A stretch of DNA of 64,000 nucleotides from Falsiroseomonas frigidaquae. GTDB lineage: Bacteria; Pseudomonadota; Alphaproteobacteria; Acetobacterales; Acetobacteraceae. This document shows positions 1-58,669 of the stretch, piece by piece. The position numbers were made by a program, and so were the translations under genes. The notes beneath the pieces were generated by a model, which was not told where the DNA came from, ran no database searches, and saw only the letters and a program-made list of their open reading frames with translations. The DNA lies in contig NZ_JAAVTX010000003.1 of the NCBI RefSeq assembly GCF_012163145.1, positions 186,001 through 250,000 of the forward strand. The letters are read 5' to 3'. Within the stretch, counting starts at the first letter, position 1; the number at the start of each line of letters is the position of its first letter.

Positions 1-424
1 CACCACCCTCACCGACTACGCCCTCCGCATGCTGGTCCACCTGGCGGTCGCGCCGGAGGGGCGGGCGACCATCGCGGCGGTGGCGGAAGCCTTCGGCATT
101 TCCGAGAACCACCTGATGAAGGTGGCACATCAGCTCGGCCAGTCCGGCCATATCCTGACCCTGCGCGGCCGTGGCGGCGGGCTGGCGCTGGCCCGGCCGG
201 CGGAGGCGATCACGGTGGGGGATGTGGTGCGGCGGATGGAGCCGGACCTGGCGCTGGTGCCCTGCATGGGCGGCGGCGCCTGCGCCATCCTGCCCGCCTG
301 CCGCCTGAAACAGGCGCTGCATCAGGCCAGGGCGGCCTTCCTGGCGGTGCTGGATGGCACCACCCTGGCCGATATCGCGCAGCCCCAGGCGGAACTGCGC
401 GAATTGCTCGGCCTGCCCGCCTGA
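1..424 (+). CDS. Rrf2-family iron-sulfur regulator, NsrR-like (5' partial)
   Basis: This is a transcription factor of the Rrf2 family, probably an Fe-S cluster sensor of nitric oxide or redox stress. The first complete codon is at position 2 and the start codon lies before the window, so about 140 residues are visible. They begin in helix 1 of the winged helix (TLTDYALRML), pass the recognition helix (ENHLMKVAHQL) and the wing (RGRGGGLAL), and end with three cysteines spaced C-x5-C-x5-C followed by RLKQAL. That is the cluster-binding pattern of NsrR proteins. The target is not visible because the upstream side is missing. IscR or RirA would have a different cysteine spacing, so NsrR-like is preferred. 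The stop codon abuts a hairpin-rich repeat. Confidence 0.85.
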   Translation, partial: TTLTDYALRMLVHLAVAPEGRATIAAVAEAFGISENHLMKVAHQLGQSGHILTLRGRGGGLALARPAEAITVGDVVRRMEPDLALVPCMGGGACAILPACRLKQALHQARAAFLAVLDGTTLADIAQPQAELRELLGLPA

Positions 425-557
425 TACTAAATCCCATTGATGGGAACCTGCGCCCGCCGAAAGGCGGGCGAGCGGCCGAATGGCCGCCGCGCCAAGTGGC
501 GCGTAGCCAAGCCGGCGATTGAGGCTGTGATCGGTCACGATCAACGGGATTTGGTAT
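424..557. repeat. Modular hairpin element, copy 1
   Basis: This 134-bp element fills the gap between two stop codons. Its ends are 17-bp imperfect inverted repeats: ATACTAAATCCCATTGA at 424-440 and its near complement at 541-557, with 2 mismatches. Inside are consecutive perfect hairpins: 451-470 (8-bp stem, GAAA loop), 472-487 (GCGGCC, loop GAAT) and 488-503 (CGCGCC, loop AAGT). These are followed by TAGCCAAGC at 504-512 and a short GTGA/TCAC stem at 527-538. Copies at 21505 and 57376 share the GAAT loop and the AGCCAAGC linker but have different stem sequences. Confidence 0.85.
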
Positions 558-560
558 GAC

Positions 561-14212: not shown

Positions 14213-14303
14213 CGGGGGTCCCCTGGTCGGCCGGGGCCAGCGGCTTGCACCACCCCCCGGGAAAGGGGGCGGAACATGCCGGTCCTGCCGCTCCGGGGCA
14301 AGG

Positions 14304-14436
14304 GAGCTTCTGCCGCTCCGCGGCGGGGGGGAGCTTCTGCCGCTCCGCGGCGGGGGGGAGCTTCTGCCGCTCCGCGGCGGGGGGGAGCTTCTGCCGCTCC
14401 GCGGCGGGGGAGCTTCTGCCGCTCCGCCGCGGGGGC
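14304..14436. repeat. 27-bp minisatellite upstream of argG
   Basis: Five tandem copies begin at 14304, 14331, 14358, 14385 and 14410, with periods 27, 27, 27 and 25. The unit is GAGCTTCTGCCGCTCC followed by GCGGC and a G run. A degenerate copy lies just before, at about 14278-14303. Each unit contains GGAGC...GCTCC and CCGCGG complementarities, so the array can fold extensively. It lies in the 281-bp divergent gap between argG and the secreted hydrolase. Confidence 0.92.
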
Positions 14437-14493
14437 CGCGGCATGAATCTCGCTGGACAGACCGGCTGCGGTCTGGTTCCATCGGTTCACGGC

Positions 14494-20689: not shown

Positions 20690-21505
20690 ATGCGAATTTC
20701 ATTGTGCAACGAAGTCGTTGCGTCCCTGCCCTTCGCCCAGCAGACGAAGCTCGCCGCTGCGCTTGGCTATGACGGGCTGGAAGTGGCGCCCTTCACGCTG
20801 GATGCCGAAGCCCCGCATCTGCTGCCGGCCGCACGGCGCGCGGAGCTGCGACGCATCGCGGCGGAGGAAGGCGCGCCCATCACCTCCCTGCATTGGCTGC
20901 TGGTGGCGCCGGCGGGCCTGTCCATCACCACCGCCGATGCCGCGACCCGCACACGCACGCTGGATGTGATGCAGCGCCTGGTCGGCCTCGCCGCCGATCT
21001 CGGCGCGACGCTGCTGGTGCATGGATCGCCGAAGCAGCGCCAGGTCACGGCAGATGGCGATGCGCAGCGGGCGGAGGAGGCGATGGCGCAGGCCGGCGCC
21101 TGGGCCGCGCAGCATGGCCTCACCTATTGCCTGGAACCGCTCGATGCCGGCCAGACCAACTGGGCGCGGACAGTGGCGGAGGCGGTGGAGATCGTCACCC
21201 GGCTGGATGTGCCGGGGCTGGCCACGATGCTCGATGTCAGCGCCGCCGGAAATGGCGAACAGGACAGCGCCGCCGCGCTGCTGCGCCGCTTCATCCCCGG
21301 GGGGCGCATCGCCCATGTGCATCTGAACGATCGCAATCGCCGCGGCCCGGGCCAGGGCAGCGATGCGTTCCGCCCCGTCCTCGATGCGCTGATCGATACG
21401 CGTTATTCCGGCTTCTGTGCGGTGGAACCTTTCGACTACCATCCGGATGGCGCCACCAGCGCCGCACGCGCCATCGGCTATCTGCGGGGAATTCTCGAGG
21501 AATGA
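20690..21505 (+). CDS. Sugar phosphate isomerase/epimerase-like TIM barrel
   Basis: This 271-residue member of the xylose isomerase-like TIM-barrel superfamily carries the usual metal ligands: Glu in CLEPLD, Asp in MLDVSA, His in HVHLNDRN and Glu in CAVEPFDY. Relatives isomerise or epimerise keto-sugars or act as inosose dehydratases. The ATG lies 2 nt after the Gfo/Idh stop, so translation is coupled. Its TGA at 21503-21505 coincides with the left boundary of the second hairpin element. Confidence 0.85.
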   Translation: MRISLCNEVVASLPFAQQTKLAAALGYDGLEVAPFTLDAEAPHLLPAARRAELRRIAAEEGAPITSLHWLLVAPAGLSITTADAATRTRTLDVMQRLVGLAADLGATLLVHGSPKQRQVTADGDAQRAEEAMAQAGAWAAQHGLTYCLEPLDAGQTNWARTVAEAVEIVTRLDVPGLATMLDVSAAGNGEQDSAAALLRRFIPGGRIAHVHLNDRNRRGPGQGSDAFRPVLDALIDTRYSGFCAVEPFDYHPDGATSAARAIGYLRGILEE

Positions 21506-21631
21506 AGCCAAATCCTGCGGATCGTGACCAATCCGCCCTCGATCGGCGGCGCGCGCATTCGCGCGCTTGGCTGCGCGCCCCCGGGCGCAGCGCCCATTCG
21601 GGCGCAGGTCGCAGCCTGCAGGATCTGGCAT
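21505..21631. repeat. Modular hairpin element, copy 2
   Basis: This element is inverted relative to copy 1. The terminal repeats are GCCAAATCCTGC at 21507-21518 and, reversed, GCCAGATCCTGC at 21618-21629. Hairpins lie at 21551-21566 (GCGCGC, loop ATTC), 21571-21590 (CTGCGC...GCGCAG) and 21590-21605 (GCGCCC, loop ATTC), with GCTTGGCT between the first two. On the minus strand the shared motifs read CGAATG and AGCCAAGC, as in copies 1 and 3. The right end supplies the AGGA ribosome binding site (21620-21623) and overlaps the ATG of the next gene. Confidence 0.85.
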
Positions 21632-23057
21632 GAGCCTCCGCTTCACGCTGCTCGAAACCCAGCGCTTCGAATGGCCCTTCACCCTGCGCCTGCCTTTCCG
21701 CTTCGGCGTCATCACGGTGACGCAGGGACGGCAGGCGGTGATCCGCGCGCGGATCCGGCTGGAGGATGGCAGCGAGGCCTGGGGCGTGGCGGCGGAGACG
21801 CTGGCGGCGAAGTGGTTCGACAAGGACCCGAAGCTGTCCGACTCGCAGAACGAACAGCAATTGCGCCGCGCGCTGGAACTGGCGACGGAGGCCAGCCTGG
21901 CCGCCGGCGCGGACACCGCCTTCGGTCATTTCGCCAATAGCTATGCGGCGGTGACGCAGGCGGCGGCGGCGGAAGCGCTGAACCCGCTGGTCGCAAGCTA
22001 CGGCCGCGCGCTGCTCGACCGCGCCATGCTGGATGCGGCTTTGAAGGCGAAGCGCGTGTCCTTCTGGGCCGGCATGCGCGGCAATATCGGTGGCATGGCG
22101 CCGCATGACGTGGCGCCCGACCTCGCCGGCTTCGATTTCGCCGCGATGCTCGCCGGGCAGTCGCCGCTTGCCCGCCTGCATGCGCGGCATACGGTGGGGC
22201 TGGTCGATCCCATCACGGCGGCGGACCAGGACAGCCGGGTGAATGACGGGCTGCCGGAAACGCTGGAGGAAGTGGCGACCGGCTACGGCCATCGCTACTG
22301 GAAGCTGAAGGTGGGCGGCAATATCGCGGCCGATGTTGACCGGCTGTGCCGCATCGCCGCCGTGCTGGACCGCGCCCATGGCGGCTACCACGCCAGCCTG
22401 GACGGCAACGAACAATACGAGGATGCGGAGGGCGCGCTGGCGCTGTGGCGCGCCATGCAGGCGGAGCCGCGGCTGGCGCGGCTGTGCCGGTCCATCCTGT
22501 ATATCGAACAGCCGGTGAAGCGCGCCCGCGCGCTGGAGACCGGCATGGCGGCGCTGGCCGCCGAACGCCCCGTCATCATCGACGAAAGCGACGGCCCGCT
22601 GGACGCCTTCGTCACCGGCCGCGCCCTGGGCTATGCGGGCGTGTCCTCCAAGGCCTGCAAGGGCGTCTGGCGGTCCCTCATCAACCTGGCGCGCTGCCGC
22701 GCCTGGAATGCGGAGGAGAAGCGCGAGCGCTACTTCATGTCGGCGGAGGACCTGACCACGCTCGCCGGTGTCTGCGTGCAGCAGGATCTGGCGCTGGTCG
22801 CCCTCCTCGGCCTGCCGCATGTCGAGCGCAACGGGCACCATTTCATCGATGGCTTCTCCGGCCGCCCGAAGGCGGAGGCCTATGCCTTCCTGGAGGCGCA
22901 TCCGGCGCTCTACGCCGACACCGCGCATGGCCCGAGGCTGGCCATCCGCGACGGGATGCTGGATATCGCGAGCCTGGACACGCCCGGCCTGGGCGCGACG
23001 CTGGAGCCTGATTTCACCGCGATGGCGCCGATGCCCAAGGCCGCCTGGCCCAATTGA
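21630..23057 (+). CDS. Enolase-superfamily protein (mandelate racemase/sugar-acid dehydratase type)
   Basis: This 475-residue protein has an enolase-type C-terminal barrel. Catalytic elements are visible in order: the KxK motif in YWKLKVGG, metal ligand Asp in SLDGNEQY, Glu in YIEQP, an acidic pair in PVIIDESDGP and a Lys in SSKACKG. This set fits abstraction of the alpha proton of a carboxylate, as in sugar-acid dehydratases or racemases. The protein is longer than typical mandelate racemases. Its ribosome binding site and start codon are built from the end of the adjacent repeat. An M20 hydrolase follows after 13 nt. Confidence 0.8.
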   Translation: MSLRFTLLETQRFEWPFTLRLPFRFGVITVTQGRQAVIRARIRLEDGSEAWGVAAETLAAKWFDKDPKLSDSQNEQQLRRALELATEASLAAGADTAFGHFANSYAAVTQAAAAEALNPLVASYGRALLDRAMLDAALKAKRVSFWAGMRGNIGGMAPHDVAPDLAGFDFAAMLAGQSPLARLHARHTVGLVDPITAADQDSRVNDGLPETLEEVATGYGHRYWKLKVGGNIAADVDRLCRIAAVLDRAHGGYHASLDGNEQYEDAEGALALWRAMQAEPRLARLCRSILYIEQPVKRARALETGMAALAAERPVIIDESDGPLDAFVTGRALGYAGVSSKACKGVWRSLINLARCRAWNAEEKRERYFMSAEDLTTLAGVCVQQDLALVALLGLPHVERNGHHFIDGFSGRPKAEAYAFLEAHPALYADTAHGPRLAIRDGMLDIASLDTPGLGATLEPDFTAMAPMPKAAWPN

Positions 23058-45504: not shown

Positions 45505-45563
45505 GGGAAAGCCCTTCGGTCGAGGCGCCTCAGTAGCGCGGGCGCGCCACCGCGGGCACCCTC

Positions 45564-45726
45564 AGAGCCTGACCCAAAAGCTCGGCGGATCAGTCCTGTG
45601 CAGCTTTTCCGCCCTGGCGGCGTCCGACAACTTGCCGATGCAGTTAGCATCGGCGGCGTTGCCGTCCTGGCCAGGACGAAAAATCCGCGACTGGCCCTCA
45701 GCCGCCGACCTTATGGGTCAGGCTCT
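45564..45726. mobile_element. MITE-like element with 25-bp terminal inverted repeats
   Basis: AGAGCCTGACCCAAAAG starts at 45564, and its near complement ends at 45726. The arms match for about 25 bp with 3-4 mismatches (left AGCTCGGCGG, right AGGTCGGCGG after the shared part). TCA flanks both sides and may be a target duplication. There is no coding capacity. An internal hairpin, CCGATGC-AGTTA-GCATCGG, lies at about 45634-45652. The right end overlaps the folD stop codon. It is likely mobilised by a transposase encoded elsewhere. Confidence 0.75.
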
Positions 45727-46568
45727 CAGCCGCGGCGGGCCAGGGCCGCGTCCAGCGTGTTCTCCAGCAGGCAGGCGATGGTCATCGGGCCGACGCCGCC
45801 GGGCACCGGGGTGATGGCGCCGCAATGCGCCGCGACCTCGGCGAAGGCGACATCGCCCACCAGCCGCCCATCGGCCCGGCGGTTGATGCCGACATCGATC
45901 ACGGTGGCGCCTTCCGCCACCCAGTCGCCGCGCACCATCTCGGGCCGCCCGACCGCCGCCACCAGGATCTCCGCCCGCCGGCACTCGGCGGGCAGGTCGC
46001 GGGTGCGGGAATGCACGATGGTGACGGTGCAATCGGCTGCAAGCAGCAGCTGCGCCATCGGCCGGCCGACGATGTTGCTGCGCCCCAGCACCACCGCCCG
46101 CGCCCCCGGCAGCGCCGCGCCAGCCGCCTTCAGCAGATGCATGACGCCCTTCGGCGTGCAGGGCACCAGGCCCGGCTGCCCGCTGGCCAGCCGCCCGGCA
46201 TTCAGGGGATGAAAACCATCCACGTCCTTCTCCGGCGCGACGGCAGCGATCACGCGGTCGGCGCGGATCTGCGGCGGCAGGGGAAGCTGCACCAGGATGC
46301 CATCCACCGCCGGGTCGGCATTCAGCCGCGCCACCTCGGCCAGCAGCGCATCTTCCGTCGTGTCCTCGGGCAGGGCGATGGTGGCGCTGTCGAAGCCCAC
46401 CTCCTTCGCCGCCTTGTCCTTGTTGCGGACATAGACGCCAGATGCCGGATCCTGCCCCACCCGCACCACGCGCAGGCCGGGCCGGAAGTCGAGCCCGGCC
46501 ACGCGCGCGGCGATGTCCTGGCGCAGCGTGGCGGCAACCGCCTTGCCGTCGATGATTGTGGCGCTCAT
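45726..46568 (-). CDS. folD: Methylenetetrahydrofolate dehydrogenase/cyclohydrolase
   Basis: This bifunctional enzyme interconverts 5,10-methylene- and 10-formyl-tetrahydrofolate with NADP. It has 280 residues. The substrate/catalytic region has the Lys in [13 protein letters not shown] near residue 54, VQLPLPPQI near 98, and the NADP-binding [16 protein letters not shown] near 165. [10 protein letters not shown] near 257 is the closing signature. The start at 46568 overlaps the DUF167 stop. The stop codon lies in the terminal repeat of the upstream-facing MITE. Confidence 0.96.
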
Positions 46569-56563: not shown

Positions 56564-57378
56564 TGGCCGAGGCCGCCCCCGCGCAATTCCGCAAACGCCT
56601 GGTGACCCTGCAGGGCGCGCTGCCCTGGATCACCACGCCCATCCTGCTGGCCGTCTTCGTGCTGATCTGGGACAGCTATGTGCGCTTCTCCGGCATCTCC
56701 CCGCTGATCCTGCCGCGGCCGGTCGCTGTGTGGTCCGCCTGGCTGGAATTGCTGGCCGATCCGCGCGCCTGGCACCATACCTGGATGACGGTCTATGCGA
56801 CGCTGACCGGCTTCGCCTATGCCACGGTGATCGGCGTGACGCTTGGCGTGCTGATCGCGCGCATCCGCTGGCTGGAGCAGACGCTGAACCCCTTCATCGT
56901 GGCGACGCAGGTGATCCCGAAGGTCGCGCTGGTGCCGCTGTTCGTGCTGTGGTTCGGCTTCGGCGTGACGTCCAAGGTGATCGTCGCCGCGGTGCTCGCC
57001 TTCTTCCCGATCCTGACCAATACGGCGATGGGGGTGAAGTCGATCGATGAGGGGCACCGGGATGTCATGGTGTCGCTGAATGCGACGCGCTGGCAGGTAT
57101 TCCGGCGCCTGGAACTGCCCTCCGCCCTGCCCTTCATCATCACGGGGCTGGAGATCGGCATCGTGCTGGCGATCATCGGCGCGGTGGTCGGCGAATACCT
57201 CGGTGGCAATGCGGGGCTGGGGCATCTGCTGATCGCGCGGCTGAACGCCTTCGAGACGGATCAGATGTTCGCGGTGCTGATCCACATGTCGCTGCTCGGC
57301 TTCCTGTTCTACTTCGCCATCGGCGCGCTGCGGCGGATGCTGGTGCCGTGGCATGCCTCCGCGCGGCTGCGGGTATGA
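56563..57378 (+). CDS. NitT/TauT-type ABC transporter permease
   Basis: This 271-residue inner-membrane permease has about six helices. The conserved loop DVMVSLNATRWQVFRRLELPSALP lies near residues 165-188 (EAA-type, shown in part by SLNATRWQVFRRLELP), and AIIGAVVGEYLGGNAGLG is characteristic of SsuC/TauC-type permeases. The ATG shares one base with the ATPase stop. Its TGA stop begins the third hairpin element. Confidence 0.93.
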   Translation: MAEAAPAQFRKRLVTLQGALPWITTPILLAVFVLIWDSYVRFSGISPLILPRPVAVWSAWLELLADPRAWHHTWMTVYATLTGFAYATVIGVTLGVLIARIRWLEQTLNPFIVATQVIPKVALVPLFVLWFGFGVTSKVIVAAVLAFFPILTNTAMGVKSIDEGHRDVMVSLNATRWQVFRRLELPSALPFIITGLEIGIVLAIIGAVVGEYLGGNAGLGHLLIARLNAFETDQMFAVLIHMSLLGFLFYFAIGALRRMLVPWHASARLRV

Positions 57379-57513
57379 TGGGAAGTCGGCGCCCTTCCGC
57401 CCTGCGGCCCGCAGGGCCGAGCGCCCGAATGGGCGCCGCCGCTTTTGCGGCGAAGCCAAGCGGCCGGAGGCCGCGCCCGGCGTTTGAGGGGCATGGAAGC
57501 GAAGCCTTCATGC
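57376..57513. repeat. Modular hairpin element, copy 3
   Basis: This is in the same orientation as copy 1 and spans the permease stop to 2 nt before the dehydrogenase ATG. Perfect hairpins: 57399-57417 (GCCCTGCG, loop GCC), 57421-57436 (GCGCCC, loop GAAT), 57437-57452 (CGCCGC, loop TTTT) and 57460-57474 (GCGGCC, loop GGA). AAGCCAAGC lies at 57453-57461. GGCGTTTGAGG matches GGCGATTGAGG of copy 1. A terminal imperfect hairpin covers 57491-57513. The terminal CCAAATCC repeats of copies 1 and 2 are not clear here. Confidence 0.8.
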
Positions 57514-57514
57514 A

Positions 57515-58669
57515 ATGCAAGTGACCCCGGAGCAAACGCAGATCCTGGCGAGCGTCGAGACATTCCTCGCCCGCCGCCTGCCGCCGGCGGAAATCCGCCG
57601 GCGCGATGCGGCGCATGTGCCGCCCTACGACCTGCTGCCGGAGATGGGGGCGCTTGGCCTCTTCGCACTGGCGGTGCCGGTGCCGGAAGGCGGCCTCGGC
57701 GGGGATTGGGCGACGGTGGCGCTGGTGCAGGATGCGCTGGGCCGGCACGCCTATATGGCCGCTTCCATCTTCAACCGCGTCGTCGGCTTCGGCCTGGCCA
57801 CCATCCGCGCCCATGGCAGCGCCGCCCAGCGGGCGGAGCTGCTGCCGTTGCTGATGGCGGGGGAGGCGTTCTGCGCCCTGGCGCTGACCGAACCGCAGGC
57901 CGGCAGCGATGCCGCGGCGATCCGCACCCGCGCCGTGCGCCACGAAGGCGGCTGGCGCATCAATGGCCGCAAGACCTGGATCAGCGATGCGGAAGGCGCG
58001 CGCTGGCTGATCCTGCCCGCCCGCACGGGGCCGGAGCCTGCGGGCGCGCGCGGCATTTCCCTGTTCCTGGTACCGACCGCGACGCCCGGCCTCGCAATGA
58101 CCCGGCTGCCCAAGGTGGGCAACAACTGCATGCCCTCCTTCGACATCGGGCTGCAGGATGTGGATGTGCCGGAGGATGCGCTGCTGGGCGAGGAAGGCCG
58201 CGGCTTCCCGCATATGATGTCCACGCTGCATTTCTCCCGCGCCTCCATGGCCGCCACGGTGACGGGGGCTGCGGAAGCCGCGCTGCGGATCGCGCTGGCG
58301 CATGCGCAGGAGCGGGAGCAGTTCGGCCAGCCGATCGGCCGCTTCCAGGCCATCGCGCACCGGCTGGTGGATATGCGGATGCGGGTGGATCAGTCCCGCC
58401 TGATGGTGCGGCACCTGGCGCAGCTGATCGACCAGGGCGCGCCCTGCCGGCGGGAAGCGGCGCAGGCCAAGATCATCGCGACGGAGACGCTGCGCGATGT
58501 CGCCGATGCCGGCATGCAGATCCTGGCCAGCGCGGGCTATGCGGCGGAAAGCGACATGCAGCGGCTGTGGCGGGATTCGCGCCTCTACACCTTCGGCGAG
58601 GGCGCGAATGAGGTGCTGCGCGATTCCATCGCGCGGGAGATGGGTCTGACGACAAGGGGAATGGCGTGA
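57515..58669 (+). CDS. Acyl-CoA dehydrogenase
   Basis: This 384-residue flavoenzyme desaturates acyl-CoA thioesters. It shows ALTEPQAGSDAAAI near residue 128, GRKTWISDA near 152, FSRASMAATVTGAAEAAL near 248 and the C-terminal FGEGANEVLRD segment that carries the usual catalytic Glu. It is likely cytoplasmic and passes electrons to ETF. The ribosome site is weak; the start lies immediately after the hairpin element. It is coupled to the amidohydrolase downstream (GTGA). Confidence 0.92.
   Translation: MQVTPEQTQILASVETFLARRLPPAEIRRRDAAHVPPYDLLPEMGALGLFALAVPVPEGGLGGDWATVALVQDALGRHAYMAASIFNRVVGFGLATIRAHGSAAQRAELLPLLMAGEAFCALALTEPQAGSDAAAIRTRAVRHEGGWRINGRKTWISDAEGARWLILPARTGPEPAGARGISLFLVPTATPGLAMTRLPKVGNNCMPSFDIGLQDVDVPEDALLGEEGRGFPHMMSTLHFSRASMAATVTGAAEAALRIALAHAQEREQFGQPIGRFQAIAHRLVDMRMRVDQSRLMVRHLAQLIDQGAPCRREAAQAKIIATETLRDVADAGMQILASAGYAAESDMQRLWRDSRLYTFGEGANEVLRDSIAREMGLTTRGMA

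Follow-up and report, generated by a model that had tools for sequence, protein, structure and literature searches.

Multi-hairpin MITE-like mobile elements, often positioned on stop codons, in Falsiroseomonas frigidaquae and other Alphaproteobacteria

Three look-alike hairpin clusters, reported in a first-pass annotation of a 64,000-nucleotide stretch of the Falsiroseomonas frigidaquae genome, are real, and every piece named there was found in the sequence. We show that they belong to a family of mobile, non-coding, MITE-like DNA. The stretch, hereafter the window, is C13:186001-250000 of a 6.08 Mb genome (G000). In our main reading, to which we assign a probability of about two in three, an enzyme inserts these units, often at stop codons, with a 3-bp target duplication and their stems are afterwards kept as DNA. 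The elements are non-coding mobile units of up to five hairpins and constant linkers, and their insertion duplicates 3 bp that are mostly TNA where they can be read, often a gene's stop codon. After landing, at the orthologous sites scored, the stems stay nearly perfect while the loops drift, and selection for binding or for hairpin extrusion would keep the stems as DNA palindromes.

The coordinates of the three copies are collected in Table 1. The shared plan that had been proposed for them, of hairpins, a linker and optional further hairpins, is present: all three contain hairpin B with its GAAT loop, followed by hairpin C, the AGCCAA linker and a tail whose last letters are TTGAGG or TCGAGG, with hairpin D in two of the three and hairpin A ahead in copies 1 and 3. 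Read on the plus strand, copy 1 passes from hairpins B and C to AGCCAAGC and CGGCGATTGAGG, and copy 3 from hairpins B and C to AGCCAAGC, the extra hairpin D and CGGCGTTTGAGG; copy 2, on the minus strand, has hairpin B, AGCCAAGC, an extra hairpin D and CCGATCGAGG. In copy 2 the 'GGCGNTTGAGG' end is approximate only and the second hairpin is less regular. The limits of each copy were set from empty sites in relatives, and TGA flanks each copy.

Table 1. Features of the three window copies (window coordinates; G002, G003, G008, G009 and G012 are genomes of relatives)
Positions	Strand	Feature	Evidence or remark
422-424	+	TGA, ends the Rrf2-type gene (29-424) as its stop codon; also the left target duplication, copy 1	Empty site with one TGA in G003
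425-556	+	Copy 1, 132 bp, two convergent genes around it	G003 lacks exactly these bases and one TGA
425-435	+	Left terminal inverted repeat TACTAAATCCC, copy 1	Pairs with 546-556
451-470	+	Hairpin A, CGCCCGCC-GAAA-GGCGGGCG, copy 1	
472-487	+	Hairpin B, GCGGCC-GAAT-GGCCGC, copy 1	
488-503	+	Hairpin C, CGCGCC-AAGT-GGCGCG, copy 1	
505-512	+	Linker AGCCAAGC, copy 1	
513-524	+	Tail CGGCGATTGAGG, copy 1 (no hairpin D in this copy)	
546-556	+	Right terminal inverted repeat GGGATTTGGTA, copy 1	
557-559	+	TGA, right target duplication of copy 1	
21503-21505	+	TGA, ends gene 20690-21505 as its stop codon; also target duplication, copy 2	
21506-21630	-	Copy 2, 125 bp, ends TGCCAGATCC / GGATTTGGCT, inside a former ATGA stop/start overlap	Empty in G003 and G008
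21590-21605	-	Hairpin B, GCGCCC-GAAT-GGGCGC, copy 2	
21574-21589	-	Hairpin C region, copy 2	
21567-21572	-	Linker AGCCAA, copy 2	
21551-21566	-	Hairpin D, GCGCGC-GAAT-GCGCGC, copy 2	
21631-21633	+	TGA, second target copy, copy 2; the element's final A restores the next gene's ATG start	
57376-57378	+	TGA, permease gene stop codon and target duplication of copy 3	
57379-57521	+	Copy 3, 143 bp, inside a former ATGA overlap of permease and acyl-CoA dehydrogenase genes; terminal inverted repeat not seen	Absent in G002, G003, G009 and G012; junction exact in G002
57421-57436	+	Hairpin B, GCGCCC-GAAT-GGGCGC, copy 3	
57437-57452	+	Hairpin C, CGCCGC-TTTT-GCGGCG, copy 3	
57453-57459	+	Linker AAGCCAA, copy 3; GCC able to pair with tail GGC	C-G 55, G-C 4, C-C 1 of 60
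57460-57474	+	Hairpin D, GCGGCC-GGA-GGCCGC, copy 3	
57475-57490	+	Tail GCCCGGCGTTTGAGGG, copy 3	
57491-57513	+	Optional hairpin E, GCATGGAAG...CTTCATGC, copy 3	
57522-57524	+	TGA, second target copy, copy 3	

All three window copies have an empty site in relatives; the duplicated triplet is TGA each time, and at all three this TGA ends the upstream gene as its stop codon. Where G003 reads CCTGA-CTCAG, the window holds 132 bp and a second TGA (copy 1), and where G003 and G008 read ATGA-G it holds 125 bp and a second TGA (copy 2). At the site of copy 3, the permease and acyl-CoA dehydrogenase genes of G002 share GGTATGAC, and the window has 143 bp and a second TGA between them. Copies 2 and 3 had an ATGA stop/start overlap as their target and left both frames readable, an ATG start being restored at copy 2 and a GTG start, or an upstream ATG within the element, being left at copy 3. 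Both neighbouring frames stay usable after the duplication, so that insertions survive in same-direction as well as in convergent gene pairs. At the junction of copy 2 (21506-21630), G001 carries a different insert of about 60 bp with inverted ends GTCCGGATCCCC / GGGGATCTGACC (L370), which may mark a hot spot or be a shrunken relative of the element.

A wider search for element ends started from 369 items in overlapping sets, which a script rule reduced to 70 distinct candidates, 41 of them with recognisable ends of the TACC/GGTA type. Terminal inverted repeats are clear in copies 1 and 2 and not recognisable in copy 3 and many others. Identical triplets flank 21 of the 41 elements (TCA 7, TGA 6, TTA 6, TAA 1, TTG 1), and 20 of these 21 triplets have the form TNA; in 20 of the 41 the flanking triplets are non-identical, several differing in the middle base alone. 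With genes called by a simple codon-usage script, 17 of the 41 lie exactly on a called stop codon, as do 13 of the 21 with identical triplets. The stop-codon position may be a chosen target or may merely mark the insertions that survived, since a TNA triplet is a stop codon in one of the two strand readings. Across 164 loci the gene context is same-direction at 61 (++) and 45 (--), convergent at 53, divergent at 3 and unassigned at 2; divergent pairs thus hold 3 of 164 element loci, versus 10 of 64 adjacent gene pairs in the window.

The three copies had been taken for members of one family, and further members are plentiful. In the genome, CGAATG-N8-38-AGCCAAGC occurs 14 times and its reversed control pattern never; 12 of the 14 are elements by sequence, including the three window copies and array units, and two (L003, L011) are not. 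Of the 65 matches that a covariance model built from eight copies found at E<=1, 58 pass E<=0.001, each array unit being counted singly, and relatives carry the family as well. Elements measure about 105-170 bp, with up to five hairpins and constant linkers, and individual hairpins are present in some copies and absent in others, as expected of the modular design suggested earlier. By eye, we distinguished several sub-types: some copies have terminal inverted repeats (TACCAAATCCC..GGGATYTGGTA) and some lack them, others have a long hairpin C, and others form tandem arrays (units of 104 and 105 bp, at C13:10680-11070 and C16:397680-398073). The long hairpin C sub-type, CGCGCCCAG..CCAGTGCAC.GGCGCG, was seen at L039, L056, L062, L064, L065, L071 and L077; in L056, L064, L065 and L077 linker GGC goes with tail GCC, another instance of the linker-tail covariation described below. 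Three loci in G219 (L445-L447) have a hairpin C reading CCGAGC-TTAT-GCGAGG or CCGAGT-TAAT-ACGAGG, with G opposite A at two adjacent steps, possibly tandem G.A pairs; Erythrobacter elements are similar. At C13:137807 in the F. frigidaquae genome (L118), both element ends are kept and hairpins B-D deleted.

All 15 other genomes of our genus sample carry the family, with 39-113 matches each. Near-identical copies occur in G034. Outside the genus, the covariance search was positive in none of eight other genera of the host family and in three of 16 genomes of other families. The sequence-only pattern AGCCAAGC N9-15 GCGCCCGGCGTYTGAGG yielded at least 119 stretches in named genomes; among the 80 pattern matches listed are Falsiroseomonas, Neoroseomonas, Roseococcus, Roseicella, Azospirillum, Niveispirillum, Nitrospirillum, Erythrobacter, Croceicoccus and Blastomonas, so that further genera of the host family are carriers. 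A second model scored 17 of 250 alphaproteobacterial genomes as positive, our own included, and 16 of 209 genera, counts that are floors, since the filters were strict and no more than 22 candidates were scored in any genome. Viral contigs contributed 16 stretches to the sequence-only set and three to model R2, and the loci from relatives comprise 28 from the search and 80 further stretches, of about 150 matches listed. Among plasmids, nine records (Azospirillum 8, Niveispirillum 1) match copy 3, none of them along more than 43% of it, and no record matches copy 1. Such patchy and high-copy occurrence is typical of mobile DNA.

In 60 distinct 79-nt cores, 97.8% of stem cells are paired versus 76.0% in shuffles, with slid registers far below, and 187 cells are changed on both sides versus 66.4 in shuffles; the number of pairs with any both-sided change is less telling (11 versus 9.6, with 51 of 500 shuffles reaching at least that). 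The rows are 79-nt matches, further array units and one identical core having been left out. Position C45 of the linker and G70 of the tail covary across these cores (counts in Table 1). The 60 cores came from the structure model, and hairpin D therefore serves as the independent test, in 138 elements from genomes and viral contigs that were picked on the sequence either side of D. By length class, its Watson-Crick fraction is 0.957, 0.958, 0.923 and 0.985 (47, 36, 13 and 41 elements) against shuffle means of 0.602, 0.570, 0.688 and 0.606, and in no class does any of 1000 shuffles reach the observed value; a single remaining element of different length is at the null value. A perfect hairpin of at least 5 bp stands ahead of the linker in 78 of the 138 elements versus 66 of 1380 random positions. 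Compensatory change beyond chance, as claimed from the three copies, and additional copies were thus both found; the first-pass annotation had named the lack of either as grounds for abandoning the idea.

Differences between dispersed copies do not alone show selection, and orthologous sites are the better evidence; the step from compensatory change to structural selection, taken earlier on the former, rests better on the latter. Filled orthologous sites form 15 sets among the 164 loci, of which 11 were scored as 17 pairs; the stem counts omit the other four (L108/L225, L033/L085, L049/L107, L065/L171), which have a long hairpin C or weak flanks. Stems differ at 5 of 204 positions in hairpin B (2.5%) and 10 of 204 in hairpin C (4.9%), and loops at 14 of 68 (21%) and 25 of 68 (37%), respectively; in the same comparison, coding differences amount to 1737 of 8990 synonymous third positions (19%) and 842 of 19204 first and second positions. 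At the orthologous sites scored, the stems are therefore kept nearly perfect while the loops drift. The relatives' copies are best-scoring model matches, which favours intact stems, and our own copies, accepted down to about 22 bits, escape most of this bias. In eight own elements at orthologous sites, 138 of 140 scored B-D pairs are intact versus about 27 disruptions expected under neutrality, a rough estimate in which each lineage is given half of the pairwise synonymous divergence. Lost parts outside the 140 pairs are the linker, hairpin D and tail of L072 and hairpin A of L037. Genome-wide, some copies have decayed: hairpin B is perfect in 39 and hairpin C (short register) in 43 of 63 own matches; a 6-of-6 hairpin occurs at 10 of 1260 random positions.

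Stems could also be upheld without any function, through template switching during replication that rewrites one arm from its partner, or through gene conversion among the copies. We consider this reading, whose chief neutral mechanism is template-switch correction, possible, if rather improbable; it concerns upkeep and is compatible with mobility. The changes are almost all two-sided swaps of G-C to C-G with few intermediates, and at orthologous sites 25 both-sided paired changes stand against 12 one-sided ones, in pairwise comparisons that are non-independent, all of which would fit such copying. However, symmetric correction predicts roughly neutral change of pairs, and the change seen in stems B and C is 4-8 times below that of synonymous sites (subject to the bias towards intact stems among the relatives' copies); gene conversion, for its part, should homogenise the loops too, yet the loops differ most.

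Selection on a transcript, with the element a structured RNA (a 3'-UTR or intercistronic element, or an sRNA) that is incidentally mobile, seems unlikely, and the RNA option offered by the first-pass annotation is disfavoured accordingly. Strong covariation, the linker-tail pair and the location of most loci downstream of genes would suit such an RNA, as would the low folding energy of copies 1 and 2 (z from -5.7 to -6.8; -6.8 and -6.5 for the strands of copy 1) and that in G034, where one copy has z -8.0 on one strand and -10.5 on the other. Against it, both strands fold well in the two elements so folded, and copy 3 reaches a z of only -1.35. RNA tolerates G.U on its own strand, and an A.C mismatch is a G.U on the opposite strand. 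After arms with more than two non-Watson-Crick positions were dropped (genus set 16 B, 27 C, 2 D; pattern set 1 D), the stems hold 19 G.T and 16 A.C, without a shift with the transcribed strand (G.T and A.C, 4 and 5 at ++ loci, 6 and 5 at --, 3 and 3 at +-). Orientation relative to same-direction genes shows only a weak strand preference (61 versus 45). Neither strand shows an excess of G.T over A.C, so the pairing is probably maintained in the DNA, as palindromes, and not in a single RNA; the counts are small, however, and the very strong GC stems may mask a weak RNA signal. No Rfam release 15 family matches an element, either in the window (gathering thresholds) or at the eight loci searched at E<=1, consistent with its not having been recognised earlier as a named family. 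A CC2171-like Rfam hit in L321 adjoins the element and does not lie inside it.

Bidirectional intrinsic terminators copied around the genome are a much less probable explanation. Although 53 of the 164 loci lie between convergent genes and copy 1 holds one weak terminator-like match (minus strand, 445-432), same-direction gene pairs hold 106 of 164, twice the convergent count, and copies 2 and 3 have no match (shuffle means 0.7, 0.4 and 0.3). For the three window copies we rejected a stem followed by a T run on this basis, the copy 1 match being at about shuffle level.

REP elements of the GTAG and CGTC super-families are described as palindromes of 20-40 bp that stand alone or as dimers and bear a GTAG or CGTC tag, the CGTC type being also common in Alphaproteobacteria and without a known transposase (PMC3733652). 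Both they and the present elements are palindromic, downstream of genes, patchy and numerous; unlike REPs as described there, ours measure about 105-170 bp, have several different hairpins and other constant sequences, vary in a base at tag-like places and show TNA duplications (PMC3733652). Inspection against this description found no 20-40 bp palindrome accompanied by a constant tag of either kind, and by these features REP membership was rejected (PMC3733652). That these are REP/BIME-type repeats mobilised by a RAYT (Y1) transposase is the least probable reading of all: the intergenic downstream position, palindromes and patchy occurrence (compare PMC3733652), CGTC letters in tails reading GGCGTCTGAGG and GTAG in copies with linker GTAGCC speak for it, but the tag letters vary (CGTT, CGCC, CGAC; AAGCC, CAGCC) and are not beside a stem beginning with AT, target duplications are of 3 bp, the source states that CGTC REPs are missing in Acetobacteraceae (PMC3733652), and the genome has no Y1_Tnp match. 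The Y1_Tnp profile (PF01797) was positive in 5 of 14 control genomes and gave no match in our genome (97.9% complete), on which ground RAYT was rejected as the mobiliser.

Returning to insertion by an enzyme with a TNA duplication, the TNA target and 3-bp duplication may recall the IS1031 group of the IS5 family, and this is only a lead. As described in PMC12016507, that group prefers TNA targets and makes a 3-bp direct repeat, TGA in the case given; our elements likewise show 3-bp TNA duplications, TGA in the window, whereas the 17-bp end of the member described there (starting GAACCTGT) is unlike the element ends (PMC12016507). No IS1031-like enzyme linked to the elements was found here, and an IS5-type search of the genome gave one PF13340 fragment, at which no matching ends were seen. 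The first-pass annotation had also proposed a transposase-like enzyme; mobility is borne out by empty sites and target duplications, and recognition of the hairpins by a transposase is a proposal.

A longer parent copy was absent among the 14 matches of one 3' end type in our genome, 11 of which adjoin model matches by coordinates, one being the internally deleted L118 and two (L121, L122) lying in genes. In G034 (77% complete) no longer element was present among the 22 end matches inspected, of 23: 20 lie in core-bearing copies, of which contig ends truncate some, and the remaining two are a solo hairpin and a copy without its 5' part. The solo palindrome, TACCAGGTCTCG..CGAGACCTGGTA (L453), consists of the last hairpin and ends only. 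In L473, without the 5' part, the element directly follows a coding sequence whose frame, by eye, seems to continue through it to TAA.

Bacterial MITEs are short, non-coding and multi-copy, with target duplication, empty sites and, in some, terminal inverted repeats. The elements resemble them in size, non-coding content, copy number, target duplication and empty sites, and some bear terminal inverted repeats; they differ in that their internal hairpins and linkers are conserved between families of the class while the ends vary, in that the stems are kept after insertion, and in that no parent transposon was found (one 3' end type, own genome and G034). The family was not recognised in the best-listed titles and abstract beginnings of open-licence PubMed Central articles, which is weak evidence of absence; it looks like an apparently undescribed variant of bacterial short mobile repeats.

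More tentatively, the elements might be a class-wide form of mobile DNA made of interchangeable hairpin modules that targets stop codons, with hairpins selected as DNA and an undescribed enzyme behind it. If this were true, the element would slip harmlessly between genes, and its hairpins, as cruciforms or single strands, would serve the host or transposition. Among the small mobile repeats of Alphaproteobacteria, the family is a widespread and apparently undescribed addition, one whose internal anatomy is shared between orders and whose empty sites are exact. Because so many copies lie at orthologous and empty sites, the upkeep of bacterial palindromic repeats after insertion becomes testable. 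It also provides a case of an element landing on stop codons, even in ATGA overlaps, with both frames left open.

The window contains two other repeats: head-to-tail repeats of a 27-bp unit, GGGAGCTTCTGCCGCTCCGCGGCGGGG, at 14302-14461, and an inverted repeat with 33-nt arms, 85% complementary and 103 nt apart, at 45561-45593 and 45697-45729.
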